A stretch of DNA of 64,000 bases from Rhizobium sp. Leaf306 (lineage in GTDB: Bacteria > Pseudomonadota > Alphaproteobacteria > Rhizobiales > Rhizobiaceae). This document shows positions 39,483-62,407 of this stretch, one piece after another. The notes under the pieces were generated by a model, which made no database searches, had not been told where the DNA came from, and saw only the letters and a program-made list of their open reading frames with translations. The translations under genes and the position numbers were made by a program. Each line of letters opens with the position of its first letter. The first letter of the stretch is position 1. The stretch is taken from the NCBI RefSeq assembly GCF_001423425.1, contig NZ_LMNX01000002.1, forward strand, positions 62,001 to 126,000, written 5' to 3'.

Positions 39483-39762
39483 CCGTCGAAAGCTGAAGAA
39501 GCGGATAAGCCAAGACCGAAGCAGACCAGAGGTTATTTCTCTATAGTTTTTGCCATTCGTGTGGAAATCGTGCCGTTTTTTCAACAATGCCAAGCGGATT
39601 TGCGTCACGTGCTGCAAAAGCCACTGAAATTATGTCTGCCTCTTTCTTTTGCACTTCACATTTCGATCGAAACCGGTAGGAATCAAAAAAATTGAAGATC
39701 CTATCAGGGACATTCAAGCGAAAGATGCGGCCGCCAAGGATCGCATCCGCAGGGGAAAATAT

Positions 39763-40665: not shown

Positions 40666-40666
40666 C

Positions 40667-43661: not shown

Positions 43662-43700
43662 GCACCATGATCATCATTCCGGCGACCGGGGGACACTGAG

Positions 43701-44054
43701 ATGCAGGGCCTGTTTTTCGAAACCGATACTGGCGTGCGTTATTTCCTGCGCGCACTCGTCATGGTCCTCGGCTTCTGGACGGCGTGGCGCGCCGGCAAGG
43801 CGGTCGCAGAAGGCTGGAACGGCTATGGCCATGTCATCGCCTACACGCTGCTTCTGGCCGTCGCGATGCAGTTCATGCACTACGCGCTGTTCCAGGGACC
43901 GTTCATCAGCCCGTTCCATTACATCATCGATGTGGTGCTGCTGATGGCGTTTTCCATCTCCGGATTCCGCATTCGCCGCACCCGTCAGATGGTTCAGAAC
44001 TACTACTGGCTCTATCAGCCTGTCTCCGCTTTCTCATGGAAGAAGAAAGATTGA
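43701..44054 (+). CDS. DUF6867 family membrane protein
   Basis: The 117-residue product has three hydrophobic segments (RYFLRALVMVLGFWTAWRAG, VIAYTLLLAVAMQFMHYAL, IIDVVLLMAFSISGFRI) and a basic C-terminus (RRTRQMVQNYYWLYQPVSAF). This matches DUF6867, a small family found between livF/braG and livJ/braC in rhizobia. Its role in the transporter is unknown; the conserved position suggests an accessory membrane subunit or stability factor. It starts 39 nt after livF. A TTGACA element overlaps its stop codon. Confidence 0.82.
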   Translation: MQGLFFETDTGVRYFLRALVMVLGFWTAWRAGKAVAEGWNGYGHVIAYTLLLAVAMQFMHYALFQGPFISPFHYIIDVVLLMAFSISGFRIRRTRQMVQNYYWLYQPVSAFSWKKKD

Positions 44055-44079
44055 CAGTCGCTCATTTCTGACTTCAGAT
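44051..44079 (+). promoter_or_regulatory. Candidate separate promoter of livJ
   Basis: A perfect TTGACA at 44051-44056 is followed after 17 nt by TCAGAT, a poor -10. It would give livJ a 110-nt leader and its own transcription, useful because binding proteins are needed in excess. The -10 is weak, so this is tentative. Confidence 0.3.
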
Positions 44080-44194
44080 TGGGTTGGGTCAAATAAGAAT
44101 ACACCAGAGGGTGGAACATTTCTCCGGCGCAATGATGGTGGGTATTGCGTCCGGGTCCCAAAAAACCGCTCACCTAAAAACTGGGAGTAAATCA

Positions 44195-45319
44195 ATGAAG
44201 AAGTCTCTTCTTTCCGCCGTCGCGCTGACGGCGATGGTCGCATTCAGCGGCAACGCCTGGGCCGATATCATTATCGGCGTTGGCGGCCCGCTGACCGGCC
44301 CGAATGCTGCATTCGGCGCGCAGCTGCAGAAGGGTGCTGAACAGGCTATCGCCGATATCAATGCCGCCGGCGGCATCAACGGCGAAAAGCTGGTCATCGC
44401 GCTCGGCGACGACGTTTCCGATCCGAAGCAGGGCATTTCCGTTGCCAACAAGTTCGCGTCCGATGGCGTGAAGTATGTGGTCGGTCACTTCAACTCGGGC
44501 GTTTCGATCCCGGCTTCGCAGGAAGTCTATGCCGAAAACGGCATGCTCGAAGTCACCCCTGCAGCAACCAACCCTGTCTTCACCGAGCGCGGCCTGTGGA
44601 ACACGTTCCGCACCTGCGGCCGTGACGACCAGCAGGGCGGCGTCGCCGGCAAGTATCTTGCCGAGAAGTTCGCCGATGCAAAGATCGCGATCATCGACGA
44701 CAAGACACCTTACGGCCAGGGTCTCGCTGAAGAAACCATGAAAGCCTACAACGCGGCCGGCAAGAAGCAGGTCATCCGCGAAGGCGTCAACGTCGGCGAC
44801 AAGGACTTCTCAGCGCTGATTTCCAAGATGAAGGAAGCCGGTGTTTCGATCATCTACTGGGGTGGTCTCCACACGGAAGCCGGCCTGATCATCCGTCAGG
44901 CGAAGGATGCTGGCCTCAAGGCAACGCTCGTATCGGGTGACGGTATCGTCTCCAACGAACTGGCCTCGATCGCTGGCGATGCAGTCGAAGGCACGCTGAA
45001 CACGTTCGGTCCCGATCCGACACTGCGTCCGGAGAACAAGGAACTGGTTGCCAAGTTCAAGGCTGCCGGCTTCAACCCTGAAGCCTACACGCTCTATTCC
45101 TACGCAGCCGTTCAGGTCATCGCCGAAGGCATCAAGCTTGCTGGCAGCCCTGACGACGCAGAAGTCGTTGCCAAGGCTCTCAAGGAAAAGGGTCCGTTCA
45201 AGACCGTTCTCGGCGACATGGCTTTCGACGCCAAGGGCGACCCGAAGCTCCCCGGCTACGTCATGTACGAGTGGAAGAAGGGGCCGGACGGCAAGTACAG
45301 CTACTTCCCGCAGGGCTGA
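44195..45319 (+). CDS. livJ: Branched-chain amino acid ABC substrate-binding protein LivJ/BraC
   Basis: The ATG at 44195 (GGGAG 7 nt upstream) exposes a signal peptide cleaved after GNAWAD. The 374-residue type I periplasmic binding protein shows [40 protein letters not shown], and [20 protein letters not shown]. It captures branched-chain and possibly other neutral amino acids in the periplasm for LivHMGF. It is the last gene of the operon and is followed by a strong terminator. Confidence 0.95.
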
Positions 45320-45443: not shown

Positions 45444-46673
45444 TCAGAAACTTTCGGGGGTGAAACTGGCAAACCGCGCCGCGGGAAGAGGGCCGGCGGT
45501 CATCAGTGTGAAATCGAAATTCGACTTTGCTTCCGATCCCAGAACGTATTGACGGTGCACGCGCAGGAAATCGCGCTTGATCCTGTTGTAGCGCTCGGGC
45601 GCCATCATCCGCTTGACCCTGATGAAGGCAAGCGTCGCCTGGGGTGCATCTTCATGTCCTGCCAGCGCCACGACGCGGCTCTTGTAGAAATGAATGCTGT
45701 CGGTGAGGCACTGAACCTCCAGCCAGAAGATCTGTGGTGATCGGGCAATGCGGCCGACACATTCGCGCAATGTTGTAGCGGGCCGCAGCATCGAGCATTG
45801 CAGGATCGCGCCACCGAGCGTCACGAAGCTCACTTTGCGGTCGCTCTGATCTGCGCCCCGCCTGAACACATCAGGATTTTCCGCAAGCAGCATGCCGATC
45901 ACGTGCGTCGCGACAGCCGATCCCATGCTGTGCGACGTGATGAGATATTCGTCCGCATCCTCAGTCAGTGCCTCGCGGACACCCTCCATGCAGCTCGCCA
46001 GCCAGGCGTTGACATCGGGCCTGTCGAGATTGCCCATCGCGTCGGCCATCTCCCAGTCGGCAAACAGGTGCAGCGTGTGAAACCGTGCCATGAAGGGCAG
46101 GAAGGCGTAGCGGAACAGCGCAAGACCAAGCGGTATGCTCCACAACAGATGCAACATATTGAGCCCGAGCAGTGCGGGCAGGGCAGCGATCACGGCGGTG
46201 AGCCCAAGCGCTACCGCCACCAGCAGGAATGGAAACAGGAAAAATAGGCCGAACCGCCATGCATGCCTGAGATAGCCGGCCATGCCGCCCTGGGTGACGA
46301 TACGCAAGGCGCTTCGATAACCGTCGAGGATACGGCGCGGCAGCGGCTTGCCGTTCAGGCTGTTGACCAGCGCGCAGTGGTCGAAGATGTAGAACCGGCT
46401 CTGCGTGACGCCGTCGCCCGCATCCCGCACCCGACAGGTTATGTCGAAATACGCCGTCTTTGCGGTCCGCTGCAGCTCACCTGTCTGGAGATCCAGGTTC
46501 CATGTCTTGGCGCTCTGTGCCGCCGAGCGCACATAGCGGGCATGGTGCATGCCGGCGTCGAGCGGCTCGAAGCCCGGGAAATGCAGGACGACGCGTTTCC
46601 TCACCCGGTCCGCCGTCGGGGAGTTATCTGCGTCGTGGGGCGTCTGTGCCGTCAAAGGCGATTGTGTAGTCAT
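45444..46673 (-). CDS. Membrane-anchored alpha/beta hydrolase of unknown function
   Basis: The 409-residue product has an N-terminal hydrolase start (KRVVLHFPGFEPLDAGMHHA), two adjacent transmembrane helices near residues 140-190 (GLFFLFPFLLVAVALGLTAV and MLHLLWSIPLGLALF), then the nucleophile elbow ITSHSMGSAVATHVIG, which fits G/S-x-S-x-G with the first Gly replaced by Ser. The C-terminal part is basic. I know no characterised relative. It lies 108 nt after the response regulator gene in the same direction, so it may be that regulator's target or part of its operon. Confidence 0.7.
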   Translation of the reverse strand: MTTQSPLTAQTPHDADNSPTADRVRKRVVLHFPGFEPLDAGMHHARYVRSAAQSAKTWNLDLQTGELQRTAKTAYFDITCRVRDAGDGVTQSRFYIFDHCALVNSLNGKPLPRRILDGYRSALRIVTQGGMAGYLRHAWRFGLFFLFPFLLVAVALGLTAVIAALPALLGLNMLHLLWSIPLGLALFRYAFLPFMARFHTLHLFADWEMADAMGNLDRPDVNAWLASCMEGVREALTEDADEYLITSHSMGSAVATHVIGMLLAENPDVFRRGADQSDRKVSFVTLGGAILQCSMLRPATTLRECVGRIARSPQIFWLEVQCLTDSIHFYKSRVVALAGHEDAPQATLAFIRVKRMMAPERYNRIKRDFLRVHRQYVLGSEAKSNFDFTLMTAGPLPAARFASFTPESF

Positions 46674-46781: not shown

Positions 46782-47717
46782 CTAGTCGGGCCGGTCGCCT
46801 GTGTGCAGGACGTTCGCCGCCATAACCGCTGCCGAGGCGCGGTTTTCGACGCCGAGCTTGATGTAGATCTGCTCGAGATGCTTGTTCACGGTGCGGGCCG
46901 ACAGACCGAGGATATCGCCGATATCCTTGTTCGCCTTGCCCTTGGCGATCCATAAGAGCACTTCAGACTCCCGTTGCGTCAGGGGAAAATGCTGGCGCAG
47001 GATTTCGTCGTCCGGCCGCTTGATGACAGCGGCCGACAGCCGGAACAGGAATTCGTCGGCGCCGATCGCGCCGAGAAACGCAAACTGCAGGCTGGTCTGC
47101 AGGTTTTCGGACAGCGAGAAGGCGGCGTTGCGGGCAAAGCCTGCCGTATCGCGCTCCGCCATCCAGGCGCCGATGCGGCCCGCGACGATCGCAATTCCGT
47201 CATCGCTTTCCGTTGCGGCATTCATCAGCCGCGTTGCTTGCGGCGTCGACCAGCGGATCGAACCGTCGTTTCTGACCGCAAGCAGATGCCGGCCGGCGGC
47301 ATCGAGCGCGACGCGGGCGCTCTGGGCGGAGCGGGCGTTGGAAAGATGCACGCGTATTCTCGCCCGCAATTCGTCGATATTGATCGGCTTGCTCAGATAG
47401 TCGACGCCGCCGCTGTCCAGCGCGTTGACGACGTGTTCGGTTTCGGTCAGGCCCGTCATGAAGATCACTGGCACTTGAGCTGCCGCATGCGCCTTCAGTC
47501 TGCGGCAGGTCTCGAACCCGTCCATGCCGGGCATCACGGCGTCGAGCAGGATCAGATCGGGCGTGATGCGCTCGACGATCGAAAGCGCTGCCTGACCCGA
47601 CGTGGCGATCAGCACCGAAAAGCCGGATTGCTCCAGCGCCTCGGTCAGAAAACCGAGCGTGTCGGGACTGTCGTCCACCAAGAGGACGATATCGCGCGGT
47701 GTCGTCGCGTCAGCCAT
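46782..47717 (-). CDS. LuxR-type response regulator paired with the upstream hybrid kinase
   Basis: The 311-residue protein has a receiver domain (residues 10-125) with Asp59 (LILLDAVMPGMDG), the acidic pair Asp15-Asp16 and Lys in YLSKPINIDE, a middle PAS-like linker, and a C-terminal LuxR helix-turn-helix (LTQRESEVLLWIAKGKANKD, LGLSARTVNKHLEQIYIKL). Its ATG lies inside the end of the kinase gene (8-nt overlap), so the two are translationally coupled and almost certainly cognate partners. It should activate transcription of genes linked to the kinase's signal; the target is unknown. Confidence 0.9.
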   Translation of the reverse strand: MADATTPRDIVLLVDDSPDTLGFLTEALEQSGFSVLIATSGQAALSIVERITPDLILLDAVMPGMDGFETCRRLKAHAAAQVPVIFMTGLTETEHVVNALDSGGVDYLSKPINIDELRARIRVHLSNARSAQSARVALDAAGRHLLAVRNDGSIRWSTPQATRLMNAATESDDGIAIVAGRIGAWMAERDTAGFARNAAFSLSENLQTSLQFAFLGAIGADEFLFRLSAAVIKRPDDEILRQHFPLTQRESEVLLWIAKGKANKDIGDILGLSARTVNKHLEQIYIKLGVENRASAAVMAANVLHTGDRPD

Positions 47718-50700
47718 CGCTCTTTTCCCGTTCTTCCAGTTCCTGTGTCTCCATGCGTTCCAGGTATTTCATGTAACCGGCCATGTCGAAGGCCTTTACA
47801 TAGGTTCCGAGCTCTTCCGCGAACGGGCGGTGCGATTGGTCCGTGGCGAGATCCGCGAGCTTGGCTTCGATGCCGCGGACGTAGCCAATTTCACCGAGCC
47901 GCAGCAGATCCTGAAGATGGCCCGTCCCGGGGCTGATGACCGGCTGCTTGACCAGCGCCGAAAGCGTCAGCGCCGGCGCTTCGTCCTCGTAGACCCATTT
48001 AAGGGAGAGATGCGAGGCGAGCTTGTCGGCAAGGCGGCGCAGGTTGACGGGCTTGGACAGCGTATCGTCATGCCCTTCGCCACCGGCATCTGCGGTCGTG
48101 CCGTCGCCGATATTGGCCGAAAGCATGATCATGGGGGCCGTCTGGCCTTCTTCGCGCAACCGCGACACGAGCTGCCAGCCGCTCATGCCGGGCATGGAGA
48201 TATCGACCAGAAACAGATCCGGCCGCACACCCTCGATCAGCGTCAGGCATTCCGGTCCGTCGACGGCCGTCAGGATGACGAAATCCATCGGCGCCAGCAC
48301 CTCGCGCATCAGGTCACGGTGATCCTGGTTGTCGTCGACCACGACGATGGTTCGGCGCGGCCCGGTATAGGAGACGATCTTGCGCTCGGCCTCCGGCGTC
48401 GTATTCGGCCTCTCGATCGCCGACAGCATGAGACGCACCTTGAAGATCGAGCCTTCACCCTTGGTGCTGGCAACGGAGATTTCACCGCCGAGGGTGTTGG
48501 TCAGAAGCTGGGTGATCGTCAGCCCAAGCCCAAGTCCCGGCATCGGCCGGATGCTTTCCGCTTCGCCGCGCTGGAACGGCTCATAGATGCGGCCGAGATC
48601 CTTCTCCGCGATGCCGCGGCCGGTATCGGTCACGGTGAAAGTCGCGACCTGGCTGCGATAGCCGATCTCGAAGCGCACCGTGCCTTCGTCGGTGAATTTG
48701 ACCGCGTTGGAGAGGATATTGACGAGGATCTGGCGAAGCCGCTTTTCGTCGGTGCGCACATATTGCGGCAACGTGCGGGCGCGCACGTGTTCGAATGCAA
48801 GGCCCTTGGCCTGCGCCTGGAGGCTGAACATCTCGACGATCTGGTCGAGGAAATCCTGGATGTTGATCTCGTTTGAATAGACCTGCAGCCGCCCGGCCTC
48901 GATCTTTGAAATGTCGAGCAGCCCGTCAATCAGGCCGGAAAGATGATCCGCGGACCGCTTGATGACCTTGATCGCCGATTGCCGCGGGGCAGGGATGGTG
49001 TCGTCGCGTTCCAGGATCTGGGCATAGCCCAAAACGGCGTTGAGCGGCGTGCGCAACTCGTGGCTCAAGCCAACCACATACCGGCTCTTGGCGCGGTTGG
49101 CGGCTTCGGCGGTTTCCTTGGCATCCTGCAGCGCCGCGTCGGTTTTCTTGTGCGCCGAGATTTCCTTCAGCAGAAGCGTGTTCTGCCGCGAGGATTCCTC
49201 CTCGGCCACCATCCGGCTGTCATGCGCCAGCACGTAGAACCAGGAGAAGATGCCGGTGATGATGGCAAACACGAAGAAGACGATCAGGATCGTGCCGTAG
49301 ATGACATCGGCATTGGCGGGTGCTGCCTGGCCTACCTGATAGGCGATCAGCGACAGGATGGCACCGATTGCCGAGATGGAGATCACCGCCGTCATCCCGT
49401 AGCGGCCTAGCCGGGTCGTGAGCTTTGCAATGACGCTTTCGGTGAGGAATGTGCGCGCCACGGTGCCGATCTGTGTGTTCAGCCGCGCATGCGGCTTGCA
49501 CATGTCGTGGCAGCGGCTGTCGAGCGAACAGCACAGAGAACAGATCGGCGCCGCATAGGCCGGGCACCATGCCATGTCCTCGTGCTCGAACGGGTGTTCG
49601 CAGATCGAGCAGGTGATCGAACCCAGCGTCTTCCAGCTCTGGCGCGGCTTTCGGGCGAGATAGTATTTGCCCTTTGTGGCAAAGGCGATCGCTGGCGACA
49701 CCACGAAGGCGCTGAGCGTCAAATAGGTGGCAAGCGACGCCATCAGCGGTCCGAACAGGCCGAAATGGGCAGTCAGCGCAATGCCTGTCGCACCAAACAT
49801 GGCGCCGAGCCCGACCGGATTGACGTCATAGAGATGGGCGCGCTTGAACTCGATGCCGGGTGGCGACAGACCGAGCGGCTTGTTGATGAACAGATCCGCC
49901 GAAATTGTGCAGAGCCAGCTCATCGCGACGATCGAGAAGATGCCGAGCGTTTCCTCCAGCAGCCTGTAGATGCCGAGTTCCATCAGAAGCAGCGCGATGA
50001 TGACGTTGAACACCAGCCAGACGACTCGGCCGGGATGGCTGTGGGTCAGGCGCGAGAAGAAGTTCGACCAGGCAAGCGACCCCGCATAGGCGTTCATCAC
50101 GTTGATCTTCAGCTGCGACACGACCACGAAGGCGGCCATCAGCATCAGCGCCGCGGTTTCGTTGGGGATCATGTAGCCGAAGGCGGCGAGATACATGTGG
50201 GCAGGATCGGCCGCGTCCTCGACCGGCACAGCGCTCGAGAGCGTCAGGACGGCGAGGAAGGAGCCCGCGAGAAGTTTTGGAACGCCGACCAGCACCCAGC
50301 CGGGTCCCGCCAGAAACACCGCGAACCGGTGCCGCCATTTCCGCTGCCCTTCCGGCGGTAGAAAGCGCAGGAAATCGACCTGCTCGCCGATCTGCGGCAT
50401 CAGTGCCAAGATGACGGCGGAGGCCGCCCCGAATTCCACCAGATCGAAGGGTGCCGAACCGCCGACTTCGCCATTCGAATGGCTGATGCCGGCAAAGGCG
50501 CGCCAGAGGTCGAATTTCTGCCAGTCCATGAAGGCAATGAAGACGAAGGGCAGGATGTTGAGGATGATCCAGAACGGCTGGGTCAGAAGCTGGAACCGGG
50601 AGATCAGCTGCACGCCGTAGATGACCAGCGGGATCACCACCGCGGCGGAGATGATATAGCCGATCCAGGGCGGAATCCCGAAGGCGAGATCCAGCGCGCC

Positions 50701-51114
50701 GGTCATGATCGACGCTTCGATCGCAAACAGCATGAAGGTGAAGCTCGCATAGATCAGCGAGGTGATGGTGGAGCCGATATAGCCAAACGAGGCGCCGCGG
50801 GTGAGGAGATCGATATCGACCCCGTGGCGGATCGCATAGCGGCTGATCGGCAATCCCACGACCAGCATGACGAGAGCGGCCACCAGAATGGCGAAAAACG
50901 CGTTGGTCGTGCCGTAGGAGAGCGTGATCGCCCCGCCGATCGCCTCCAGTGCCAGAAACGAGATCGCACCGATCGCCGTCTGCGAAATCCGGCTCGACGA
51001 AAACCGCCTAGCGCTCTTTGCGGTAAACCGCAGCGCATAGTCTTCCAGCGTCTGGTTTGCGACCCAGCGATTGTACTCACGGCGAACCGGTATGATGCGT
51101 TGGCGTGCTGCCAT
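47710..51114 (-). CDS. NCS1-permease-like hybrid sensor histidine kinase with Cys-rich module
   Basis: The 1134-residue protein has, in order: a 12-helix NCS1 (purine-cytosine permease-like) domain at about residues 40-480; a cysteine cluster at 502-539 (Cys502, 505, 517, 525, 528, 529, 535, 539) like a zinc-binding module; two more membrane helices (about 572-595 and 604-630); HisKA with His685 (SHELRTPLN); an HATPase with DTGRG and GLGLGLT; a receiver with Asp971 (LFLVDISMPG); and a helical Hpt-like tail without an obvious phospho-His. It likely senses a transported or bound nitrogen compound and phosphorylates the coupled LuxR regulator. The ligand is unknown. Confidence 0.85.
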   Translation of the reverse strand: MAARQRIIPVRREYNRWVANQTLEDYALRFTAKSARRFSSSRISQTAIGAISFLALEAIGGAITLSYGTTNAFFAILVAALVMLVVGLPISRYAIRHGVDIDLLTRGASFGYIGSTITSLIYASFTFMLFAIEASIMTGALDLAFGIPPWIGYIISAAVVIPLVIYGVQLISRFQLLTQPFWIILNILPFVFIAFMDWQKFDLWRAFAGISHSNGEVGGSAPFDLVEFGAASAVILALMPQIGEQVDFLRFLPPEGQRKWRHRFAVFLAGPGWVLVGVPKLLAGSFLAVLTLSSAVPVEDAADPAHMYLAAFGYMIPNETAALMLMAAFVVVSQLKINVMNAYAGSLAWSNFFSRLTHSHPGRVVWLVFNVIIALLLMELGIYRLLEETLGIFSIVAMSWLCTISADLFINKPLGLSPPGIEFKRAHLYDVNPVGLGAMFGATGIALTAHFGLFGPLMASLATYLTLSAFVVSPAIAFATKGKYYLARKPRQSWKTLGSITCSICEHPFEHEDMAWCPAYAAPICSLCCSLDSRCHDMCKPHARLNTQIGTVARTFLTESVIAKLTTRLGRYGMTAVISISAIGAILSLIAYQVGQAAPANADVIYGTILIVFFVFAIITGIFSWFYVLAHDSRMVAEEESSRQNTLLLKEISAHKKTDAALQDAKETAEAANRAKSRYVVGLSHELRTPLNAVLGYAQILERDDTIPAPRQSAIKVIKRSADHLSGLIDGLLDISKIEAGRLQVYSNEINIQDFLDQIVEMFSLQAQAKGLAFEHVRARTLPQYVRTDEKRLRQILVNILSNAVKFTDEGTVRFEIGYRSQVATFTVTDTGRGIAEKDLGRIYEPFQRGEAESIRPMPGLGLGLTITQLLTNTLGGEISVASTKGEGSIFKVRLMLSAIERPNTTPEAERKIVSYTGPRRTIVVVDDNQDHRDLMREVLAPMDFVILTAVDGPECLTLIEGVRPDLFLVDISMPGMSGWQLVSRLREEGQTAPMIMLSANIGDGTTADAGGEGHDDTLSKPVNLRRLADKLASHLSLKWVYEDEAPALTLSALVKQPVISPGTGHLQDLLRLGEIGYVRGIEAKLADLATDQSHRPFAEELGTYVKAFDMAGYMKYLERMETQELEEREKSDG

Positions 51115-51204: not shown

Positions 51205-52866
51205 TCACACCTCGCTGCGCTTCAGCAGGTAATCCAGCCCACCGGCGCGATACCAGCGATAGCCATAGGGCTCGATCACGATGTGATGCTTGCCTTTGTC
51301 GTCCGCTGTGCTGTCCGAGTCGTCGGCGATGTCGATCAGGTTCTTGCCCGCATCCTCAAGGCCGACGTCGAAGGTGATCTCCACCGGCCGGTCGTGGAAA
51401 TTGTGGAGGATCACCAGCGCGTTGTCGCGCCAGTCGTAGCGCATGGCGAGCACACCGTCGTCGCCGGTATCGAGGCATTCGAATGTGCCCCAGCCGATCT
51501 CCGGCGCTTCCTTGCGCATACGGATCATCCGCTCCGTCCAGTTGAGCATGGAATCCGGATCGCGACGCTGGATGGCGACGTTGACGTGGTCGAAGCCGTA
51601 GGGTCCCTCGTGGATCACGGGCAGGATCGGTTTGTCGCTCTTGGTGAAGCCGCCCTGCGGCTCGTTCGACCATTGCATCGGCGTGCGGGCGCAGTTGCGC
51701 TCGGGCAGCGACAGGTCGTCGCCCATGCCGATTTCGTCGCCGTAGCGCAGAACCGGGGTTCCGGGCAGGGAATACATCAGGCTGTAGGCGAGTTTCAGGC
51801 GGCGCGGATCGCCGCCCAGCATCGGCGCCAGACGGCGGCGGATGCCGCGGTCGTAGAGCTGCATGTCCTTGTCCGGACCCATCTTGTCGAACACCGTCTG
51901 GCGCTGCTTGTCGGTCAGGCGGCCGAGATCGAGTTCGTCGTGGTTGCGCAGGAAAATGCCCCACTGGCCGGTCGCCGGGCGTTCCTTGGTGTCGTTCATC
52001 GCCTTTGCGAGCGGCCTCACGTCGGCGCTGGCCATCGCGTAAAACAGCGACTGGTTGACGTGGAAGTTGAACATCATCTGCATCCGGTCGCCGTCGTCGC
52101 CGAAATATTGCAGGTTCTCCTTCGGAACGACATTCGCTTCGGCCAGAATGATGCTGTCACCCTGGCGCCATTGCAGGAATTCGCGGAAGGACCGCAGCAT
52201 GTCGAACTGCTCCTTCGGCTTTGTGACGTCGGCGCCCTTTTCGGCAATCACGAAGGGAACCGCATCCATGCGGAAGCCGGAGACGCCGAGCTGCAGCCAA
52301 AAGCCCATGATCTTCAGGATCTCGGCCTGCACATGCGGGTTGGCGGTGTTGAGATCCGGCTGGAATTCGTAGAAGCGGTGGAAGTAGTACTCGCCGGAAG
52401 CCTTGTCGCGCGTCCATGTCGTCTTCTGGATGCCCGGAAACACCATGCCTTCATCGGCATTGGCCGGTTTCGTCTTCGACCAGACATACCAGTCGCGGTA
52501 GCGCGAATTCTTGTCCGCACAGGCCTCCTTGAACCAGGGATGTTCGTCCGACGTGTGGTTGACGACGAGATCGATCAGGACGCGGATGCCGCGTTGCTTG
52601 GCACTGTGGGTGAACTCGACGAAATCGCCGAGCGTGCCGTAGCGGGGATCGACGTTGTAATAGTCGGAGACATCATATCCGTCGTCGCGGCCGGGAGACG
52701 CCTGGAACGGCATCAGCCAGATCGCGGTTACGCCGAGGCCGGCGAGGTAGTCCAGGCGCCGCTGCACCCCTTGAAAATCACCGACCCCGTCGCCGTTGGA
52801 ATCCATGAAGGTTTCGACATTGAGGCAATAGAAGACGGCATTTTTGTACCAGAGGTCGTTGATCAC
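51205..52866 (-). CDS. GH13 alpha-amylase family enzyme, trehalose-synthase-like
   Basis: I prefer the GTG at 52866, which has GGAG 6 nt upstream, over a GTG at 52878. The 553-residue protein shows GH13 regions: WYKNAVFYCLNVETFMDSNG and GVTAIWLMPFQASPG at the start, LIDLVVNHTSDEHPWF (region I), FRMDAVPFV with the nucleophile Asp (region II), ILAEANVV with the acid/base Glu (region III), and FLRNHDELDL (region IV). The N-terminus resembles trehalose synthase, but that enzyme usually has a longer C-terminal part. It acts on alpha-glucosides in the cytosol; exact product unknown. It stands alone. Confidence 0.85.
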   Translation of the reverse strand: MINDLWYKNAVFYCLNVETFMDSNGDGVGDFQGVQRRLDYLAGLGVTAIWLMPFQASPGRDDGYDVSDYYNVDPRYGTLGDFVEFTHSAKQRGIRVLIDLVVNHTSDEHPWFKEACADKNSRYRDWYVWSKTKPANADEGMVFPGIQKTTWTRDKASGEYYFHRFYEFQPDLNTANPHVQAEILKIMGFWLQLGVSGFRMDAVPFVIAEKGADVTKPKEQFDMLRSFREFLQWRQGDSIILAEANVVPKENLQYFGDDGDRMQMMFNFHVNQSLFYAMASADVRPLAKAMNDTKERPATGQWGIFLRNHDELDLGRLTDKQRQTVFDKMGPDKDMQLYDRGIRRRLAPMLGGDPRRLKLAYSLMYSLPGTPVLRYGDEIGMGDDLSLPERNCARTPMQWSNEPQGGFTKSDKPILPVIHEGPYGFDHVNVAIQRRDPDSMLNWTERMIRMRKEAPEIGWGTFECLDTGDDGVLAMRYDWRDNALVILHNFHDRPVEITFDVGLEDAGKNLIDIADDSDSTADDKGKHHIVIEPYGYRWYRAGGLDYLLKRSEV

Positions 52867-53044
52867 GGGATGCTCCACGGCTTCGATCGATCCGGGGCAA
52901 TTGCATCAGACGTTGAATTGTTCCCGTCCGGTTGTGAGTTTGCGATCAAGCGTCGGAAAATGCCCTATCAAACCGGTGTAATAACGCTTGCTATTTTACC
53001 CGGATCAGCGGCTATGCTTCACCATCAACATGAGGAGACAGGTC

Positions 53045-53185: not shown

Positions 53186-54544
53186 TCATGCCGCGATCTC
53201 CTTGGTCGCCGGCAGACACAGGACGGCTTCAAGACCTCCCATATGCGACCGGGAGAGGCTCAGCTTCCCGCCGTAAGCATTTGCGATGTCGCCGGAAATC
53301 GCCAGGCCAAGGCCTGTTCCGGCGCCATCGTTGTCTTCCTCCTGCTGGCCGCGGACACCGCGCTTCAGCATGGAGGCGTAACGCTCCGGCGTGACGCCCG
53401 GGCCATCGTCCGCGATACGCAGCAACACCATCCCGCCGTCGCCCCTCGATGCCGTCAGCGCGATGCGCCGTCTTGCAAAACGGACAGCGTTGTCGAGAAT
53501 GTTGCCGATCGCTTCGGCCGCATCGGCCGGGTCCGCCTGGACCGTGAGCGCCGGATCGATGTCGAGGGCCCATTCGATCCCGCGGTCCTCGGTGACCGGC
53601 GACAGCACACTCACAAGCTTTCCCGAAATGCCGAGAAGCGATGTCGTCGCCATCTGTTCGACGCCCATTCGAGCGGCCTGCAACTGCCGGTCGGCGCGCT
53701 GGCGCACCAGCTCGATCTGCTGCAGGGCCGTTTCGCGACGGGCGTCCGGCAGATCCTCGACCAGATGGGAGAGCACCGTCAGCGGCGTCTTCAGGCCATG
53801 TGCCAGATCGCTTGCCCGGGCGCGCGCCCGCTCGACGGCATTTTCCCGCTCCGACAGAAGAAGGTTGATTTCGTTGACGAGCGGCGTGACTTCGCTTGGC
53901 CCCTGCGCACCGATGCTCGGCAGGCGACCGGCCCGGATATCGGCTACATCCCGGCGCAGGCGCGCCAGCGGCCTCAGGCCGACGAGGCTCTGCAGGAGTG
54001 CGGCCATAAAAAGCAGGGCGCCGATGGCAACCAGCATCATGACCAGAGGGCGGTGATAGGTGGCCAGCGCTTCCTCCATGTCGTTCTTGGAGAAGGCCGT
54101 GTAGAGGGTGAAGCGCTGCAGGGCATCGCCTTCGCCGATCGACATCTCCCTGACCGTGATCAGGATCGGGCGTCCATCGGGTCCCTCGGCCTGGTAGAAG
54201 CCGCAATAGAGATCGGGGGAAAACACCTGCCGCGAAAGTTCCTGGTCCCAAAGCGAGCGCGAGCGCAGCGGAGGTTTCCCGTCTGCGGGCGATATCTGCC
54301 AGTAGAGGCCACCGGCGGGGATCTGAAAGCGTGCATCGGACGGCTCGCTGGCCAGGGAGAGACCATTCTGCTGGATTGTCAGCCGGGCGCCGAGCGCGTC
54401 CGAGACGGCCGTCATCTCCGCGGAATATTGGTCGGCAACATAGTCCTCGAACAGGTGACCAAGCACGAACCAGGCGAGCCACAGGGCCACACCGATCGAT
54501 ATCAGGGCGCCGATTGCCAGCCGGAAACGCAGGGAGCGGATCAC
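53186..54544 (-). CDS. PhoQ/QseC-type sensor histidine kinase
   Basis: The GTG-started 452-residue kinase has two transmembrane helices (about residues 10-31 and 166-190) framing a periplasmic sensor part, a HAMP-like linker, HisKA with DLAHGLKTPLTVLSHL (phospho-His), and an HATPase with NILDNAVRFA, DDGPGV and GTGLGLAI. The His box with Gly-Leu-Lys marks the PhoQ/TctE-like subgroup. The start overlaps the regulator's stop (GTGA), so they are coupled. It is last in an operon with the PepSY gene and the response regulator. The signal is unknown; divalent cations or envelope peptides are typical for relatives. Confidence 0.9.
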   Translation of the reverse strand: MIRSLRFRLAIGALISIGVALWLAWFVLGHLFEDYVADQYSAEMTAVSDALGARLTIQQNGLSLASEPSDARFQIPAGGLYWQISPADGKPPLRSRSLWDQELSRQVFSPDLYCGFYQAEGPDGRPILITVREMSIGEGDALQRFTLYTAFSKNDMEEALATYHRPLVMMLVAIGALLFMAALLQSLVGLRPLARLRRDVADIRAGRLPSIGAQGPSEVTPLVNEINLLLSERENAVERARARASDLAHGLKTPLTVLSHLVEDLPDARRETALQQIELVRQRADRQLQAARMGVEQMATTSLLGISGKLVSVLSPVTEDRGIEWALDIDPALTVQADPADAAEAIGNILDNAVRFARRRIALTASRGDGGMVLLRIADDGPGVTPERYASMLKRGVRGQQEEDNDGAGTGLGLAISGDIANAYGGKLSLSRSHMGGLEAVLCLPATKEIAA

Positions 54545-55206: not shown

Positions 55207-55210
55207 GATA

Positions 55211-56345: not shown

Positions 56346-56363
56346 ATACGTCATTCGACGTAT
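56346..56363. promoter_or_regulatory. Perfect inverted repeat upstream of urtA
   Basis: ATACGTC and GACGTAT are exact reverse complements separated by ATTC. The 18-bp site lies 88 nt before the urtA ATG and 134 nt before the divergent repeat-protein gene. The symmetry fits a dimeric regulator; which one is unknown. Confidence 0.45.
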
Positions 56364-56451: not shown

Positions 56452-57744
56452 ATGACATTCAGGGTGAAACTTACCGGCGCGCTGCTTGCCGCTGCCATGT
56501 CCGCCACGGCGCTTTCGGGCGCATACGCTGCCGACGATACGATCAAGATCGGCGTTCTGCATTCGCTGTCCGGTACGATGGCGATTTCCGAGACGACGCT
56601 GAAAGACGCCATGCTGATGATGGTGGAAGAGCAGAACAAGAAGGGCGGCGTTTTGGGCAAGAAGCTCGAAGCCGTCGTCGTCGATCCGGCCTCCGACTGG
56701 CCGCTGTTTGCCGAAAAGGCCCGCCAGCTGATTTCGCAGGACAAGGTTGCAGCCGTTTTCGGTTGCTGGACCTCGTCGTCGCGCAAGTCGGTTCTTCCTG
56801 TCTTCGAAGAGCTGAACTCGATCCTGTTCTACCCGGTCCAGTACGAGGGTGAAGAATCCTCGCGCAACATCTTCTACACGGGTGCCGCGCCAAACCAGCA
56901 GGCCATTCCGGCTGTCGACTATCTCGCCAAGGAAGAAGGCGTCCAGCGCTGGGTTCTCGCCGGCACCGACTATGTCTATCCGCAGACGACCAACAAGATC
57001 CTCAAGGCTTACCTGATGTCGAAGGGCGTCGCCGAGGCCGACATCATGGTCAACTACACGCCGTTCGGTCATTCCGACTGGCAGACCATCGTTTCCGACA
57101 TCAAGAAGTTCGGCTCTGCCGGCAAGAAGACCGCCGTTGTTTCCACCATCAACGGTGACGCCAACGTGCCGTTCTACAAGGAACTCGGCAACCAGGGCAT
57201 CAAGGCCGAAGACATTCCGGTCGTGGCCTTCTCGGTCGGCGAAGAAGAGCTTGCCGGTCTCGACACCAAGCCGCTGGTCGGCCATCTCGCCGCCTGGAAC
57301 TATTTCCAGTCCGTCGATGCCGAGGTCAATGCGTCCTTCATCAAGGAATGGCACGCCTTTACCAAGAACGACAAGCGCGTGACCAACGATCCGATGGAAG
57401 CCGCCTATATCGGTTTCCAGGCCTGGGTTAAGGCCGTCGAATCCGCCGGGACGACCGACACGAACGCGGTTCTGGACTCGATCATCGGCGTTTCGGTGCC
57501 GAACCTGTCGGGCGGCTATTCCACCGTCATGCCGAACCACCACATCACCAAGCCGGTGCTGATCGGTGAAATCCAGGCCGACGGCCAGTTCGAAATCGTC
57601 CAGGAAACGCCGGCCGTCGTCGGTGACGAATGGTCGGATTACCTGCCGGACTCCAAGGACCTGATCTCCGATTGGCGCAAGCCCATGTCCTGCGGCAACT
57701 TCAACGTTGCCACCGGCAAGTGCGGCGGCAAGGGCGGCAGCTGA
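56452..57744 (+). CDS. urtA: Urea ABC transporter substrate-binding protein UrtA
   Basis: The ATG at 56452 (GAGGGG 9 nt upstream) exposes a signal peptide cleaved near GAYAAD. The 430-residue protein shows UrtA hallmarks: IKIGVLHSLSGTMAISETTL, VFGCWTSSSRKSVLPVFEEL, LFYPVQYEGEESSRNIFYTG, and the C-terminal CGNFNVATGKCGG. It binds urea in the periplasm for UrtBCDE. It is followed by a 118-bp palindromic element before urtB. The operon leads to ureD, so imported urea feeds urease. Confidence 0.97.
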   Translation: MTFRVKLTGALLAAAMSATALSGAYAADDTIKIGVLHSLSGTMAISETTLKDAMLMMVEEQNKKGGVLGKKLEAVVVDPASDWPLFAEKARQLISQDKVAAVFGCWTSSSRKSVLPVFEELNSILFYPVQYEGEESSRNIFYTGAAPNQQAIPAVDYLAKEEGVQRWVLAGTDYVYPQTTNKILKAYLMSKGVAEADIMVNYTPFGHSDWQTIVSDIKKFGSAGKKTAVVSTINGDANVPFYKELGNQGIKAEDIPVVAFSVGEEELAGLDTKPLVGHLAAWNYFQSVDAEVNASFIKEWHAFTKNDKRVTNDPMEAAYIGFQAWVKAVESAGTTDTNAVLDSIIGVSVPNLSGGYSTVMPNHHITKPVLIGEIQADGQFEIVQETPAVVGDEWSDYLPDSKDLISDWRKPMSCGNFNVATGKCGGKGGS

Positions 57745-57918: not shown

Positions 57919-57972
57919 GTGTTGAGCCAGCCTCCAATCCGCAAGTATCCGCCATGTGTGAAGGGCGATGTC

Positions 57973-59589
57973 GTGACAACAAGAAGCTTCATCAGAGCGG
58001 TTTTTGCCGTTCTCCTCCTCGCTCTAGCAGCGCCAGCATTTTCGCAAGGGGCTGATCCGAAGCCGCTGTTTAACCAGCTCGCCGATGCCGATTTCGGCCA
58101 GGCTGAATCGATCGTCGCTCAGATCGCCACCAGTGGCGATATCCGCGTTGTGCCGGCGCTTGAGGCTTTTGCCGAGGGTGATCTCTATTTCCGCAAGGCG
58201 GACAAGGCCGTGTTCGTGGCAAAACCCGCCGGCGCGCAGCTCGATCTCATCGATCCGGTGACGGCGGAAAGTGCCGGCCAGGTCGCCAAGGGGGCAGTCA
58301 CCAAGATCCGCGTCAACAATACGCTGCGGCGCGCCATTCGTGCAGCGCTTGGCGGTCTGACGCTGATGAGCCCTGATCGCGGTGTCCGTCTTGCCGCAGC
58401 CGATGCGATCCTTTTGTCGCCGAGTGCGGAGGCGCTGGATCTCGTCGAGGCTGCGATTGCCAAGGAAACAGACCGCGACGTCAAATTCCGCATGGAAGAG
58501 GCGCGCGCCGTCTCGGTGCTCTCATCCGACCGCTCGCTCGACGAAAAGCGGGCCGCCATCCAGACCATGGGCAATCTTGGCGGGCGCAGCGCGCTCGGCA
58601 TCCTGAGTTCGGTTTCGTCAACGATCGATCCGAGCCTGAAAGCCGATCTAGATGCGGCGATCAAAGCAATCCAGAACGAGCAGCAGCTGTGGGATATGGC
58701 CCAGAACGTCTGGTACGGCGTGTCGCTCGGTTCCGTGCTGCTCTTGGCCGCGATCGGACTTGCCATCACCTTCGGCGTGATGGGCATCATCAACATGGCG
58801 CATGGCGAAATGGTCATGCTCGGCGCCTATTCCACCTATGTGGTGCAGGAAGTGATCCGCAGTCACGCGCCGGGCCTGTTCGACTGGTCGCTGACGATTG
58901 CGCTGCCGGTCGCCTTTCTCGTCACCGGCGCCGTCGGCTTCGTCGTGGAGCGCGGTATCATCCGCTTTCTCTATGGCCGGCCGCTGGAAACGCTGCTTGC
59001 AACCTGGGGCGTGTCGCTGATCCTGCAGCAGACGATCCGGTCGATATTTGGCCCCACCAACAAGGAAGTCGGCAACCCGTCCTGGATGTCCGGTTCGTTT
59101 CCGCTCGGCGGCATGACGATCACCTGGAACCGCATGTGGATCGTCATCTTCTCGCTGTCGATCTTCTTCGCGCTGCTGGTGGTGATGAAGAAATCCGCCT
59201 TCGGCCTCAATATGCGGGCCGTCACCCAGAACCGCCGCATGGCGTCGTCGATGGGCATCCGCACGCCATGGGTCGATGCGCTGACCTTCGCGCTCGGCTC
59301 GGGCATTGCCGGTATCGCCGGCGTCGCGCTCAGCCAAATCGACAACGTCTCGCCCAATCTCGGCCAGAGCTACATCATCGACAGTTTCATGGTCGTGGTG
59401 TTCGGCGGCGTCGGAAATCTCTGGGGCACGCTGGTCGGGGCACTGTCGCTCGGGGTGCTTAACAAGTTCCTCGAACCCTCGGTTGGCGCCGTTCTCGGCA
59501 AGATCCTGGTTCTGGTTCTCATCATTCTCTTCATCCAGAAACGTCCGCGCGGTCTTTTCGCGCTCAAGGGAAGGGCGATCGAAGCATGA
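57973..59589 (+). CDS. urtB: Urea ABC transporter permease UrtB
   Basis: I chose the GTG at 57973 (AAGGG 7 nt upstream), which gives a signal peptide (TRSFIRAVFAVLLLALAAPAF) and the usual length, 538 aa. The N-terminal 250 residues form a periplasmic helical-repeat domain typical of UrtB. The LivH-like permease follows: GLAITFGVMGIINMAHGEMV and MVVVFGGVGNLWGTLVGALS. The start lies 54 nt after the palindromic element. The stop overlaps the urtC ATG (ATGA). Confidence 0.93.
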   Translation: MTTRSFIRAVFAVLLLALAAPAFSQGADPKPLFNQLADADFGQAESIVAQIATSGDIRVVPALEAFAEGDLYFRKADKAVFVAKPAGAQLDLIDPVTAESAGQVAKGAVTKIRVNNTLRRAIRAALGGLTLMSPDRGVRLAAADAILLSPSAEALDLVEAAIAKETDRDVKFRMEEARAVSVLSSDRSLDEKRAAIQTMGNLGGRSALGILSSVSSTIDPSLKADLDAAIKAIQNEQQLWDMAQNVWYGVSLGSVLLLAAIGLAITFGVMGIINMAHGEMVMLGAYSTYVVQEVIRSHAPGLFDWSLTIALPVAFLVTGAVGFVVERGIIRFLYGRPLETLLATWGVSLILQQTIRSIFGPTNKEVGNPSWMSGSFPLGGMTITWNRMWIVIFSLSIFFALLVVMKKSAFGLNMRAVTQNRRMASSMGIRTPWVDALTFALGSGIAGIAGVALSQIDNVSPNLGQSYIIDSFMVVVFGGVGNLWGTLVGALSLGVLNKFLEPSVGAVLGKILVLVLIILFIQKRPRGLFALKGRAIEA

Positions 59590-60761
59590 TTACCGGCTTC
59601 ATTCTGCGTGCACTCGAAGGCAAGATCGTCGTTGCCATCGCCATCCTGCTCGGCGTCGCCATTCTCGTCCCGGCGCTCAATCTCCTGACCTCGCCAGACA
59701 GCGCGTTCCACATCCCGACCTATGCGATGGCGCTGATGGGCAAGTATCTCTGCTACGCGCTTCTGGCGCTGGCACTCGATCTGGTCTGGGGCTATTGCGG
59801 CATCCTCTCGCTCGGCCACGGCGCGTTCTTTGCGCTCGGCGGCTATGCGATGGGCATGTATCTGATGCGCCAGATCGGCTCGCGCGGCACCTACGGCAAT
59901 CCGCTGCTGCCCGATTTCATGGTCTTCCTCAACTGGAAGGAACTGCCGTGGTTCTGGTACGGGTTCGATCACTTCGCCTTTGCGATGCTGATGGTTCTGG
60001 TCGTGCCCGGCCTGCTGGCCTTCGTCTTCGGCTGGTTCGCCTTCCGGAGCCGCGTCAACGGCGTCTACCTGTCGATCATCACCCAGGCGATGACCTATGC
60101 GCTGCTGCTCGCCTTCTTCCGCAACGACATGGGTTTCGGCGGCAATAACGGCCTGACCGATTTCAAGGAAATCCTCGGCTTCAACGTGCAGGCCGGCGGC
60201 ACCCGTGCAGCGCTGTTTGCGATGTCGGCGATCATGCTGGCTCTCTGCCTTCTGGTCGCCTCGGCCATCACCCGCTCGAAATTCGGCAAGGTGCTGGTTG
60301 GCGTGCGCGATGCGGAAAGCCGGGTTCGCTTCCTCGGCTTCCGGGTGGAGAATATCAAGCTCTTCACCTTCGTCGTTTCGGCCATGTTTGCCGGCATTGC
60401 CGGTGCGCTGTTCGTGCCGCAGGTCGGCATCATCAATCCAGGCGAATTTGCCCCCGCCAACTCGATCGAAGTCGTCGTCTGGACGGCGGTCGGCGGGCGC
60501 GGCACGCTGATCGGCCCGATCATCGGCGCCATCCTCGTCAATGCCGGGAAAAGCTATTTCACCGGCGCCTTCCCGGAAATCTGGCTGTTTGCGCTGGGCG
60601 GCCTGTTCATTGCCGTCACGCTGTTCCTGCCGCGGGGCATCGTCGGCACCATCCAGCACGGCTTTGCTGGCCGCAAGGCGCTGAAGGCAGCGGTCGAGGC
60701 GGAAAAGGGCAGGGATGCCGGGGCGGTCCCGGTTGCGCGACAGGTTCAGGCAGCGGAGTGA
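59586..60761 (+). CDS. urtC: Urea ABC transporter permease UrtC
   Basis: The 391-residue LivM-like permease has about 10 transmembrane helices with LLALALDLVWGYCGILSLGH, GAFFALGGYAMGMY and VVWTAVGGRGTLIGPIIGAI. It pairs with UrtB to form the urea channel. Its ATG overlaps the urtB stop, and urtD starts 4 nt after its stop, so the genes are one translational chain. Confidence 0.95.
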   Translation: MITGFILRALEGKIVVAIAILLGVAILVPALNLLTSPDSAFHIPTYAMALMGKYLCYALLALALDLVWGYCGILSLGHGAFFALGGYAMGMYLMRQIGSRGTYGNPLLPDFMVFLNWKELPWFWYGFDHFAFAMLMVLVVPGLLAFVFGWFAFRSRVNGVYLSIITQAMTYALLLAFFRNDMGFGGNNGLTDFKEILGFNVQAGGTRAALFAMSAIMLALCLLVASAITRSKFGKVLVGVRDAESRVRFLGFRVENIKLFTFVVSAMFAGIAGALFVPQVGIINPGEFAPANSIEVVVWTAVGGRGTLIGPIIGAILVNAGKSYFTGAFPEIWLFALGGLFIAVTLFLPRGIVGTIQHGFAGRKALKAAVEAEKGRDAGAVPVARQVQAAE

Positions 60762-60765
60762 GACG

Positions 60766-61527
60766 ATGAACACGATTGCCGAAACACGCACGAAAAGCCT
60801 GCTCTATCTCGAAGACGTCTCCGTCTCCTTCGACGGGTTCAAGGCGATCAATTCGCTGTCGCTCGTGGTCGAACCGGGAGAGCTTCGCGCCATCATCGGC
60901 CCGAACGGTGCCGGCAAGACGACGATGATGGACATCATCACGGGCAAGACGCGTCCCGACACCGGCCGGGTGATCTTCGAGGACACGATCGACCTCACCA
61001 AGAAGGACGAGGCCGATATCGCCCAGCTCGGCATCGGCCGCAAATTCCAGAAGCCGACCGTGTTCGAAAGCCACACCGTGTGGGATAATCTCGAACTGGC
61101 GCTCAACCGGTCGCGCAGCGTGTTCGGCACGCTGTTCTATACGCTGTCTGCAGACGACAAGGCGCGCATCGAGGAAATCCTCGAGACGATCCGCATGTCC
61201 CACCGCAAAAACGAATATGCCGCCAATCTTTCGCACGGCCAGAAACAGTGGCTCGAGATCGGCATGCTGCTCGCGCAGGAACCGAAACTGCTTCTTGTCG
61301 ACGAGCCGGTCGCCGGCATGACGGATGCCGAGACATCCGAGACCGCATTGCTGCTGAAGGAAATCGCCAAGACCCGCTCGGTCGTGGTGGTGGAACACGA
61401 CATGGGCTTCATCCGTGATCTCGGCGTCAAGGTGACGTGTCTCGCGGAAGGGTCGGTGCTGGCCGAAGGGTCGATCGATTTCGTGTCGAACGATCCGAAG
61501 GTGATCGAGAATTATCTGGGGCGGTGA
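60766..61527 (+). CDS. urtD: Urea ABC transporter ATPase UrtD
   Basis: The 253-residue ATPase has Walker A GPNGAGKTT near residue 45, the Q-loop in IGRKFQKPTVF, signature LSHGQKQWLEIGMLL (the UrtD-type His in place of the second Gly), Walker B LLLVDEPVAGMTD, and the H-loop VEHDMGFIR. It powers urea uptake with UrtE. It starts 4 nt after urtC; an upstream in-frame start would overlap urtC by about 50 nt and lacks a site. A palindromic element follows 6 nt after the stop. Confidence 0.95.
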   Translation: MNTIAETRTKSLLYLEDVSVSFDGFKAINSLSLVVEPGELRAIIGPNGAGKTTMMDIITGKTRPDTGRVIFEDTIDLTKKDEADIAQLGIGRKFQKPTVFESHTVWDNLELALNRSRSVFGTLFYTLSADDKARIEEILETIRMSHRKNEYAANLSHGQKQWLEIGMLLAQEPKLLLVDEPVAGMTDAETSETALLLKEIAKTRSVVVVEHDMGFIRDLGVKVTCLAEGSVLAEGSIDFVSNDPKVIENYLGR

Positions 61528-61649: not shown

Positions 61650-61711
61650 GAAAGGGTGCCGCAAGCTTGTCGATACTCCAGCGGCCGACACAACGAGAAA
61701 AGAGACCGACC

Positions 61712-62407
61712 ATGCTGACAGTCGAAAACGTCAATCTCCATTACGGTGCGGCACAGGCCCTGCGCGGCGTGTCGATCAAGGCGGATATGGGCAAGATCAC
61801 CTGCGTGCTTGGTCGTAACGGCGTCGGCAAGTCGTCGCTGTTGCGCGCCGTCACCGGGCAGCATCCGGTGTCAGCCGGTACGATCAGCTTCCAGGGCGAG
61901 ACGTTGAACGGATTGGCGCCCTATCACCGTGCCAAGCACGGCATCGGCTATGTGCCGCAGGGGCGCGAGATCTTTCCGCTGCTGACCGTTCAGGAAAACC
62001 TGCAAAGCGGGTACGCACCGCTGGAGCGCAAGGACAAGTTTATCCCGGATGACATCTTCGCGCTGTTCCCGGTGCTCAAATCCATGCTGGGGCGCCGCGG
62101 CGGTGATTTGTCCGGCGGCCAGCAGCAGCAGCTGGCGATCGGCCGGGCCATGGTCACGCGGCCGAAGATCCTGGTGCTGGACGAGCCGACCGAAGGCATC
62201 CAGCCGTCGATCATCAAGGATATCGGCCGGGCCATCCGCTACCTGCGCGACAGTACCGGCATGGCAATCCTGCTGGTCGAACAGTATCTCGACTTCTGCC
62301 GGGAGCTGGCAGATCATGTCTATATTATGGATCGTGGCGAGATCGTGCACGAAGGCGCCGCTGAGACGCTGGATACGGCAGAAGCAAGGCGGCACCTCAC
62401 TGTTTAG
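61712..62407 (+). CDS. urtE: Urea ABC transporter ATPase UrtE
   Basis: The ATG at 61712 gives 231 aa starting MLTVENVNLHYGAAQALRGV. Motifs: Walker A GRNGVGKSS (about residues 34-42), the LivF-like GYVPQGREIFPLLTVQENLQ, signature LSGGQQQQLAIGRAMV, Walker B LVLDEPTEGIQP and H-loop VEQYLDFCR. It pairs with UrtD. The ribosome binding site (AAGAGA) is weaker than for the other urt genes. The esterase gene follows after 130 nt. Confidence 0.95.
   Translation: MLTVENVNLHYGAAQALRGVSIKADMGKITCVLGRNGVGKSSLLRAVTGQHPVSAGTISFQGETLNGLAPYHRAKHGIGYVPQGREIFPLLTVQENLQSGYAPLERKDKFIPDDIFALFPVLKSMLGRRGGDLSGGQQQQLAIGRAMVTRPKILVLDEPTEGIQPSIIKDIGRAIRYLRDSTGMAILLVEQYLDFCRELADHVYIMDRGEIVHEGAAETLDTAEARRHLTV

Follow-up and report, generated by a model that had tools for sequence, protein, structure and literature searches.

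An NCS1-type transceptor histidine kinase predicted to control urea and amide uptake genes in Pseudomonadota

The window analysed here, a stretch of 64,000 nucleotides from Rhizobium sp. Leaf306, encodes on its minus strand a hybrid histidine kinase of 1134 amino acids (47710..51114) whose open reading frame, Pfam domains, profile-profile relationships and predicted fold describe it as an NCS1-type transceptor, i.e., a signalling protein built on a transporter-like domain. We consider it probable that this protein is a transceptor kinase for urea or short-chain amides, which would control urt and fmd genes via a partner regulator and a candidate operator. Comparison across loci gives good support to the view that the kinase, the regulator and the candidate site make up one system acting on urt and fmd genes.

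Architecture of the kinase and its transporter-derived sensor

From the N-terminus onwards, the kinase consists of a transporter-like region, a cluster of eight cysteines, two helices, the HisKA, HATPase_c and receiver domains, and a tail. Pfam places HisKA at residues 676-741, HATPase_c at 788-897 and Response_reg at 923-1032, and reports no significant domain ahead of residue 676. The catalytic His685 and Asn803 of the HisKA/HATPase_c unit (residues 676-897; 48424..49089, minus strand) are kept in all 144 aligned relatives, and Asp971 of the receiver (residues 923-1032; 48019..48348, minus strand) in 141, the other three having gaps at this position. With these three domains and their catalytic residues, the protein qualifies as a hybrid histidine kinase, and the open reading frame and Pfam bear out an earlier sequence-only reading that had placed HisKA, HATPase and a receiver in a single chain of this length. 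That reading also expected two further membrane helices after the cysteines; in the AlphaFold2 model, helices 568-597 and 599-654 follow the cluster and would form a membrane hairpin continuing into a signalling coiled coil (residues 568-654; 49153..49413, minus strand). Matches to Pfam DUF6526, which stayed under the cut-off with a best E of 0.0013 across 24 relatives, and to other families were dismissed as noise from this helical hairpin. The C-terminal tail (residues 1041-1134; 47713..47994, minus strand) was rightly described as lacking a clear phospho-His: His1066 is a histidine in 78 and His1095 in 37 of the 144 relatives, and since Pfam also detects no Hpt domain there, an Hpt tail was rejected.

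The N-terminal domain (residues 1-490; 49645..51114, minus strand; 12 predicted membrane helices) had been proposed to resemble an NCS1 permease, with a HMMER match to PF02133, the Pfam NCS1 family, as the check. The check failed: PF02133 has no match in the window's genome and none among 24 relatives, even at E<=10, and a sequence search of the PDB likewise returned no match at E<=10. The proposal itself stood by other means. For residues 1-490, a profile built on 143 relatives was compared by hhalign with one of 25 NCS1 proteins (25 of 32 sequences kept, those outside 380-620 aa being removed) and scored 99.7% (E 2e-25, 434 columns), as against 14.9% for APC, 0.1% for SSF and at most 0.2% for urtB, urtC and livM, the five control families. 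The AlphaFold2 model of residues 1-655, built from 49 sequences with L113 left out of the alignment (pLDDT 74.5, pTM 0.75), gave CodB and Mhp1 as its best Foldseek matches. VIA-align Z scores were 28.2 for CodB and 25.8, 24.8 and 22.8 for Mhp1 entries, the last being level with the runners-up, a YcsG model (22.5) and NRAMP (22.0). A free-standing protein encoded in another locus (L236), 25% identical, does match PF02133 (E 3.6e-9) and forms a bridge between this domain and the PF02133 NCS1 proteins. Judged by profile-profile comparison and predicted fold, the kinase N-terminus belongs to NCS1.

Two alignments to Mhp1, made by sequence only, were used to map the pocket. They place L129, E133 and N341 of the kinase at Trp117, Gln121 and Asn318 of Mhp1; the counterpart of K336 is Thr313 or, with one gap taken out, Ser312, an alignment uncertainty of one residue. 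The hydantoin ring bound by Mhp1 has Trp117 stacked on it and is bonded by Gln121 and Asn318 (PMC4195764), and the Na2 site of that protein is made up of the TM8 residues Ala309, Ser312 and Thr313 (PMC3812048). At position 129, 84 of the 144 relatives have Leu and 59 have Phe; E133 is Glu in 143 (with one gap), and Q241, E244, Q245, K336, N338 and N341 are invariant in all 144. The three TM8 sodium-site residues are not kept, S333 and the invariant K336 being found there, and the Na+ site thus appears to be replaced by an invariant lysine. From the pocket mapping, the conserved polar residues and K336, we infer that the sensor handles a small polar ligand, either as a sodium-independent receptor or as a transporter coupled to protons.

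The eight-cysteine module (residues 502-539; 49498..49611, minus strand) has the spacing C-x2-C-x11-C-x7-C-x2-CC-x5-C-x3-C. Every one of its cysteines (502, 505, 517, 525, 528, 529, 535 and 539) is present in all 144 aligned relatives, so that the cluster noticed in the single sequence passes the conservation check proposed for it, and D513, Y520, S526, L527 and L531 are likewise invariant. When 398 genomes of the phylum were searched with the cysteine region alone, matches lay within the kinase family, the exceptions being four weak ones from frames that are short or interrupted (E 0.003-0.008); a scan of the collected loci for the motif gave 235 matches, all of the CSLCC type. Pfam finds no domain between residues 490 and 676, and neither Pfam nor Foldseek provides a significant sequence or structure match for the module. 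The long AlphaFold2 model is weak here (pLDDT <50 at residues 516-534). Modelled alone from 47 sequences, the module reached a pLDDT of 72.7 and shows, with moderate confidence, small beta hairpins and helices and no four-helix bundle. Eight of the best ten Foldseek matches were RING, LIM, PHD, ZZ or C1 fingers (best E 1.1), and the best structural Z, 3.8, was to a fold of the cross-brace zinc finger kind; Prok-RING_1 matched 6 of 24 members under the cut-off (best E 0.12), with other noise families scoring alike. A two-zinc cross-brace fold may be suggested from these models, and the earlier idea of a metal module is plausible. Because 12 predicted helices precede it, the module is probably on the cytoplasmic side.

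Distribution, gene neighbourhood and putative ligand

Of the 398 genomes sampled from the phylum, 52 contain full-length relatives of the kinase (56 matches, of which 4 partial ones were removed), a distribution that puts the architecture far beyond chance. In L199 and L227, the NCS1-cysteine sensor is joined to a receiver-less kinase followed by a receiver-kinase protein, and in L055, a fragment, to a receiver-less kinase followed by a protein that starts like the receiver-kinase protein. Because these three loci join the sensor to another kind of kinase, the NCS1-cysteine unit moves as a module. Among PLSDB plasmids, the sensor is present in 524 records, 342 of which are from Klebsiella; two such Klebsiella plasmids (L417, L418) bear the entire kinase-regulator-urtABCDE-formamidase unit. 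A further locus (L046, 8511-14189) has a 1892-residue open frame, with the kinase starting at about residue 760.

In the window, the probable target genes urtA (56452..57744; NCBIfam UrtA score of 559 bits against a cut-off of 492.75), urtB (57919..59589; 432.5 against 250.3), urtC (59586..60761; 452.4 against 296.2), urtD (60715..61527; 386.5 against 304.1) and urtE (61667..62407; 341 against 285.8) lie on the plus strand, urtA coding for the binding protein of a urea ABC transporter and starting 5.3 kb from the kinase start. The relevance attributed earlier to urtABCDE, then put at about 5 kb, is supported by the set of kinase loci, which were chosen by the kinase and not by its neighbours and include the window's own (L031). 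By tblastn, urtA, fmdA or ureC was found in 137 of 144 kinase loci (23 of 25, 76 of 80 and 38 of 39 in the three locus sets), and four of the seven remaining loci are contigs shorter than 13 kb. The commonest neighbour is urtA (128/144 loci), which is upstream of the kinase and divergent from it in 119 of these 128. UrtA (1e-60) occurs in 51 of 52 genomes with the kinase and in 121 of 346 others (Fisher 6.5e-20, kinship not corrected).

The recurring neighbours are a urea/amide ABC transporter, formamidase (FmdA or an unrelated CN-hydrolase type), aliphatic amidase and urease, labels that were verified on one example each: FmdA scored 769 against a cut-off of 500 and aliphatic amidase 712 against 427, and single examples also confirmed the FmdB zinc ribbon, UreC and UreG. 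The formamidase that accompanies urt on the Klebsiella plasmids is of the CN-hydrolase kind and has no relation to FmdA. Three enzyme types for one class of substrates recur (FmdA, CN hydrolases acting as amidase or formamidase, and urease), and unrelated enzymes of this sort around one sensor point to that class, which would be urea and amides; it has also been suggested that urtABCDE accompanied by formamidase may carry formamide (PMC13209695). Because 137 of the 144 loci have urtA, formamidase or urease genes alongside, our best inference for the ligand is urea or a short-chain amide.

Free-standing NCS1 relatives occur in several settings. One of 535 aa, annotated as hypothetical, is encoded on an Acinetobacter lwoffii plasmid (L421, 9950-11557); it is 41% identical, retains two CxxC pairs, i.e., half of the cysteine cluster, and lies directly 5′ of ureEFG-ureJ-ureD-ureABC. 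The relative in L236 (9449-14484) is lined up with genes for a CN hydrolase, for a binding protein of the Peripla_BP_5 family and for an AmiR/ANTAR regulator, and those in L415 and L416 have no amide genes alongside. As for the surroundings in the window, an alpha-amylase family gene (51205-52878) and a second two-component pair (53186-55281; histidine kinase 53186-54544, regulator 54541-55281) lie between the kinase and urtA, unlike in many relatives, where the two adjoin. On the other side, a 409-aa gene without a Pfam match at E 0.01 (45444-46673) comes after the regulator, followed by an ABC cluster of the branched-chain amino acid type (39649-45319), whose binding protein gene is close to the kinase at 37 of the 80 loci on named contigs.

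Partner regulator and candidate operator

The gene directly after the kinase (46782..47717, minus strand) shares 8 bases with it and codes for a response regulator with a receiver, a LuxR/GerE DNA-binding domain and the recognition helix SARTVNKHLE, as judged by Pfam and helix comparison. The coupling of the kinase to a LuxR regulator, noted earlier for this one locus, holds for most loci: a same-strand regulator of 270-345 aa directly follows the kinase in 124 of 145 loci and overlaps it in 120.

A candidate operator of this regulator emerged from the intergenic regions between kinase and urtA, 46 of 86 being kept after dereplication. The heptamer TACGTCA is exact in 34 of these 46 regions (1.25 in shuffles), and two facing heptamers with a 2-base gap are present in 23. 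Heptamers in a 7-2-7 arrangement are characteristic of NarL-type regulators, and the LuxR-type partner probably has TACGTCA-N2-TGACGTA as its operator. With at most two mismatches allowed, this pattern occurs at 106 sites in the 144 loci (2.95 Mb): 96 are before urtA, 7 before fmdA, 3 before the kinase and none elsewhere, and the reversed pattern gave 2. The urtA sites fall in 95 of 128 urtA loci, mostly 74-214 bp upstream of the gene start. These counts include loci that in many cases overlap the discovery set, some being duplicates of one genome (L036/L099, L038/L106), and the kinase loci are related to each other and partly duplicated. Less circular support comes from the fmdA sites, from loci such as the window, L033 and L035, in which the kinase is distant and the site stays with urtA, and from three loci obtained later and outside the discovery set, i.e., the near-identical Klebsiella plasmids L417 and L418 and L419 from Burkholderia, where a site is located in the kinase-urtA interval or immediately ahead of the kinase. 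No site was found in L420 and L421.

In the window, the candidate operator is TACGTCATTCGACGTA (56347..56362), a 7-2-7 palindrome with one mismatch to the consensus, located 89 bp before urtA. It is unique in the window at up to three mismatches, but 1.07 such sites are expected, so that it is not significant alone; with up to two mismatches, the window's genome has 6 sites, fewer than the 11 that match the reversed pattern. The case for the operator rests on conservation across loci and not on a single genome. The sole other one-mismatch site in this genome (L311; G000:C3:806326-806341) has neighbours that we take to be a Gfo/Idh-like (sugar-type) oxidoreductase gene and a TIM-barrel-like gene.

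Occurrence of the site is linked to that of the kinase. The 760-base regions upstream of urtA in 60 kinase-less genomes, taken in list order from the 121 with UrtA, hold no site at up to three mismatches, although this control is imperfect since kinase-less UrtA is mostly of another paralogue class. For urtA genes not adjacent to the kinase in 20 kinase genomes, there were 0 sites at one, 1 at two and 3 at three mismatches.

Of the 128 urtA loci, 33 lack the consensus at up to two mismatches, and no site was found at loci such as L048-L052, L054, L210 and L213-L217, though most of these have the RTVNKHLE helix. About a dozen of the 33 are explained by Bradyrhizobium-type variants, whose conserved site, missed by the first consensus, is an operator variant; others of the 33 yielded no site. 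Regulators with the helix RTVNK pair with TACGTCA, those with the Bradyrhizobium-type helix RTVDK with TACGC[AG]A-TC-TTGCGTA (11 of 13 loci), and five with ATVKK or ATAKK with TACGCC[AG], which in four cases belongs to a urtA at some distance from the kinase. Two genomes (G518 and G368) have two systems each, with each helix type accompanied by its own operator type (locus groupings L212/L224 with L378 and L220/L221 with L380). Predicted operator variants thus track variants of the regulator helix, twice inside one genome. A wider operator pattern, fixed after the first variants were known, matches 0 of 60 kinase-less urtA promoters.

Proposed mechanism, alternatives and relation to known systems

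In the mechanism that we favour, the NCS1-type fold, with its Na+ site apparently substituted by lysine and its ring-stacking tryptophan gone, would bind urea, formamide or acetamide from outside. The resulting change of shape would be relayed to the kinase through the membrane hairpin and the cysteine module, which probably binds zinc and probably lies in the cytoplasm, and phosphate would pass from His685 to the receiver and/or to the co-transcribed LuxR-type regulator. The regulator would then bind TACGTCA-N2-TGACGTA before urtABCDE and, in relatives, also before fmdA and the kinase gene, and its binding would turn on the genes for uptake and hydrolysis. Chances are about even that the protein represents a third kind of transporter-derived sensor kinase, one that would combine an NCS1 urea/amide receptor, a sodium-site lysine convergent with that of CbrA, a cytoplasmic two-zinc finger as coupler, and a LuxR-type regulator with a 7-2-7 operator of its own at urt and fmd promoters, and that would be widespread in Pseudomonadota and on Klebsiella plasmids.

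Other readings have to be weighed against the same observations. Structurally characterised NCS1 proteins transport hydantoins and cytosine, and the Asn318 position of Mhp1 is retained as Asn341, so that the domain might sense a purine, pyrimidine, hydantoin or ureide, with urea uptake as a downstream response. We regard this as quite unlikely: the tryptophan that stacks on the ring in Mhp1 (PMC4195764) is Leu or Phe (84 and 59 of 144), Gln121 is replaced by Glu133, and the neighbours that recur are urea and amide genes. A purine, pyrimidine or ureide signal, the guess of the sequence-only reading, was consequently rejected as first choice. It is likewise improbable that the NCS1 part reads loaded UrtA, or the flux through UrtBC, rather than free ligand. 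The high frequency of urtA among the neighbours (128/144 loci) would fit this, but in L221, L224, L225 and L229 the kinase is next to urease with urtA distant, and the invariance of E133, Q241, E244, K336 and N341 fits a site for a small ligand.

The eight invariant cysteines, together with the nickel requirement of urease, could suggest that the cysteine module is the true sensor (of zinc, nickel or redox state) and the NCS1 part a membrane anchor. Little probability is given to this, as the transporter part, with its invariant polar pocket residues, is at least equally conserved, formamidase-linked loci lack a nickel enzyme of the urease kind, and the free-standing relative beside urease in L421 retains just two CxxC pairs. 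Finally, the DNA site, which is predicted from sequence and lies mainly before urtA, might serve another urt regulator and be tied to the kinase by shared ancestry alone. This is unlikely in view of the 60 kinase-less urtA promoters, none of which has the site, and of the site variants, which follow the recognition helix even in the two genomes with two systems each. A urea/amide transceptor acting through its partner regulator is the reading that we retain.

Few transporter-fused kinases have been characterised, those in the literature considered here being of the SLC5/STAC and Amt types. The system described here offers a regulator, a candidate site and a testable ligand class for the use of urea and amide nitrogen by root-nodule and soil bacteria, and bears as well on a gene cluster present on many Klebsiella plasmids. 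Among open-licence papers, we found no described NCS1-kinase and no such regulator of urt/fmd loci; for one genome, a second urtABCDE operon is mentioned, but not studied, that adjoins genes for a hybrid kinase and a regulator of the LuxR family (PMC13296017). The genes of known Urt/Fmd uptake loci, i.e., urtABCDE, fmdA, fmdB, amidase and urease, are those found in the kinase loci. Mhp1 and CodB share fold and profile with the sensor domain, which differs from them by its fusion to a cysteine module and a kinase and by the changes of W117 to L/F, of Q121 to E and of the Na2-site position to K336. Cross-brace zinc fingers (RING, LIM, PHD, ZZ, C1, FYVE) resemble the module in having eight cysteines in two interleaved pairs, although its match to them is below significance (Foldseek E 1.1, Z 3.8).

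Ks-Amt5 is, like the NCS1 kinase, a transporter-derived sensor fused to a histidine kinase, and it binds its ion without translocating it (PMC5764959); unlike the NCS1 kinase, it is an Amt trimer with ammonium as ligand and no cysteine module. The closest parallel is with the SLC5/STAC kinases CbrA, CrbS and RpuS, which also line up a transporter of the LeuT-fold class, a small linker domain and a histidine kinase. The CbrA transporter has a lysine, K196, in its Na2 site (PMC13022988), as the NCS1 kinase has K336 at the corresponding position, and the STAC domain of CbrA is cytoplasmic, the side on which the cysteine module is predicted to lie. As the sequence alone had suggested, the transporter family differs from that of CbrA, being NCS1 and not SLC5 (hhalign 0.1% to SSF; PF00474 was not found in the window's genome), and the linker appears to differ too: Pfam detects no domain in it, and the moderate-confidence model of the eight-cysteine module does not resemble STAC, a four-helix bundle. 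In addition, Pfam finds no PAS domain in the NCS1 kinase, in contrast to the SLC5/STAC kinases, and the gene context is urea and amide here, and histidine, acetate or pyruvate there. The NCS1 kinase is best read as an analogue of CbrA with another transporter family and another linker, and such a second family, joined by a different linker, would allow comparison of how a kinase reads the motion of a transporter.
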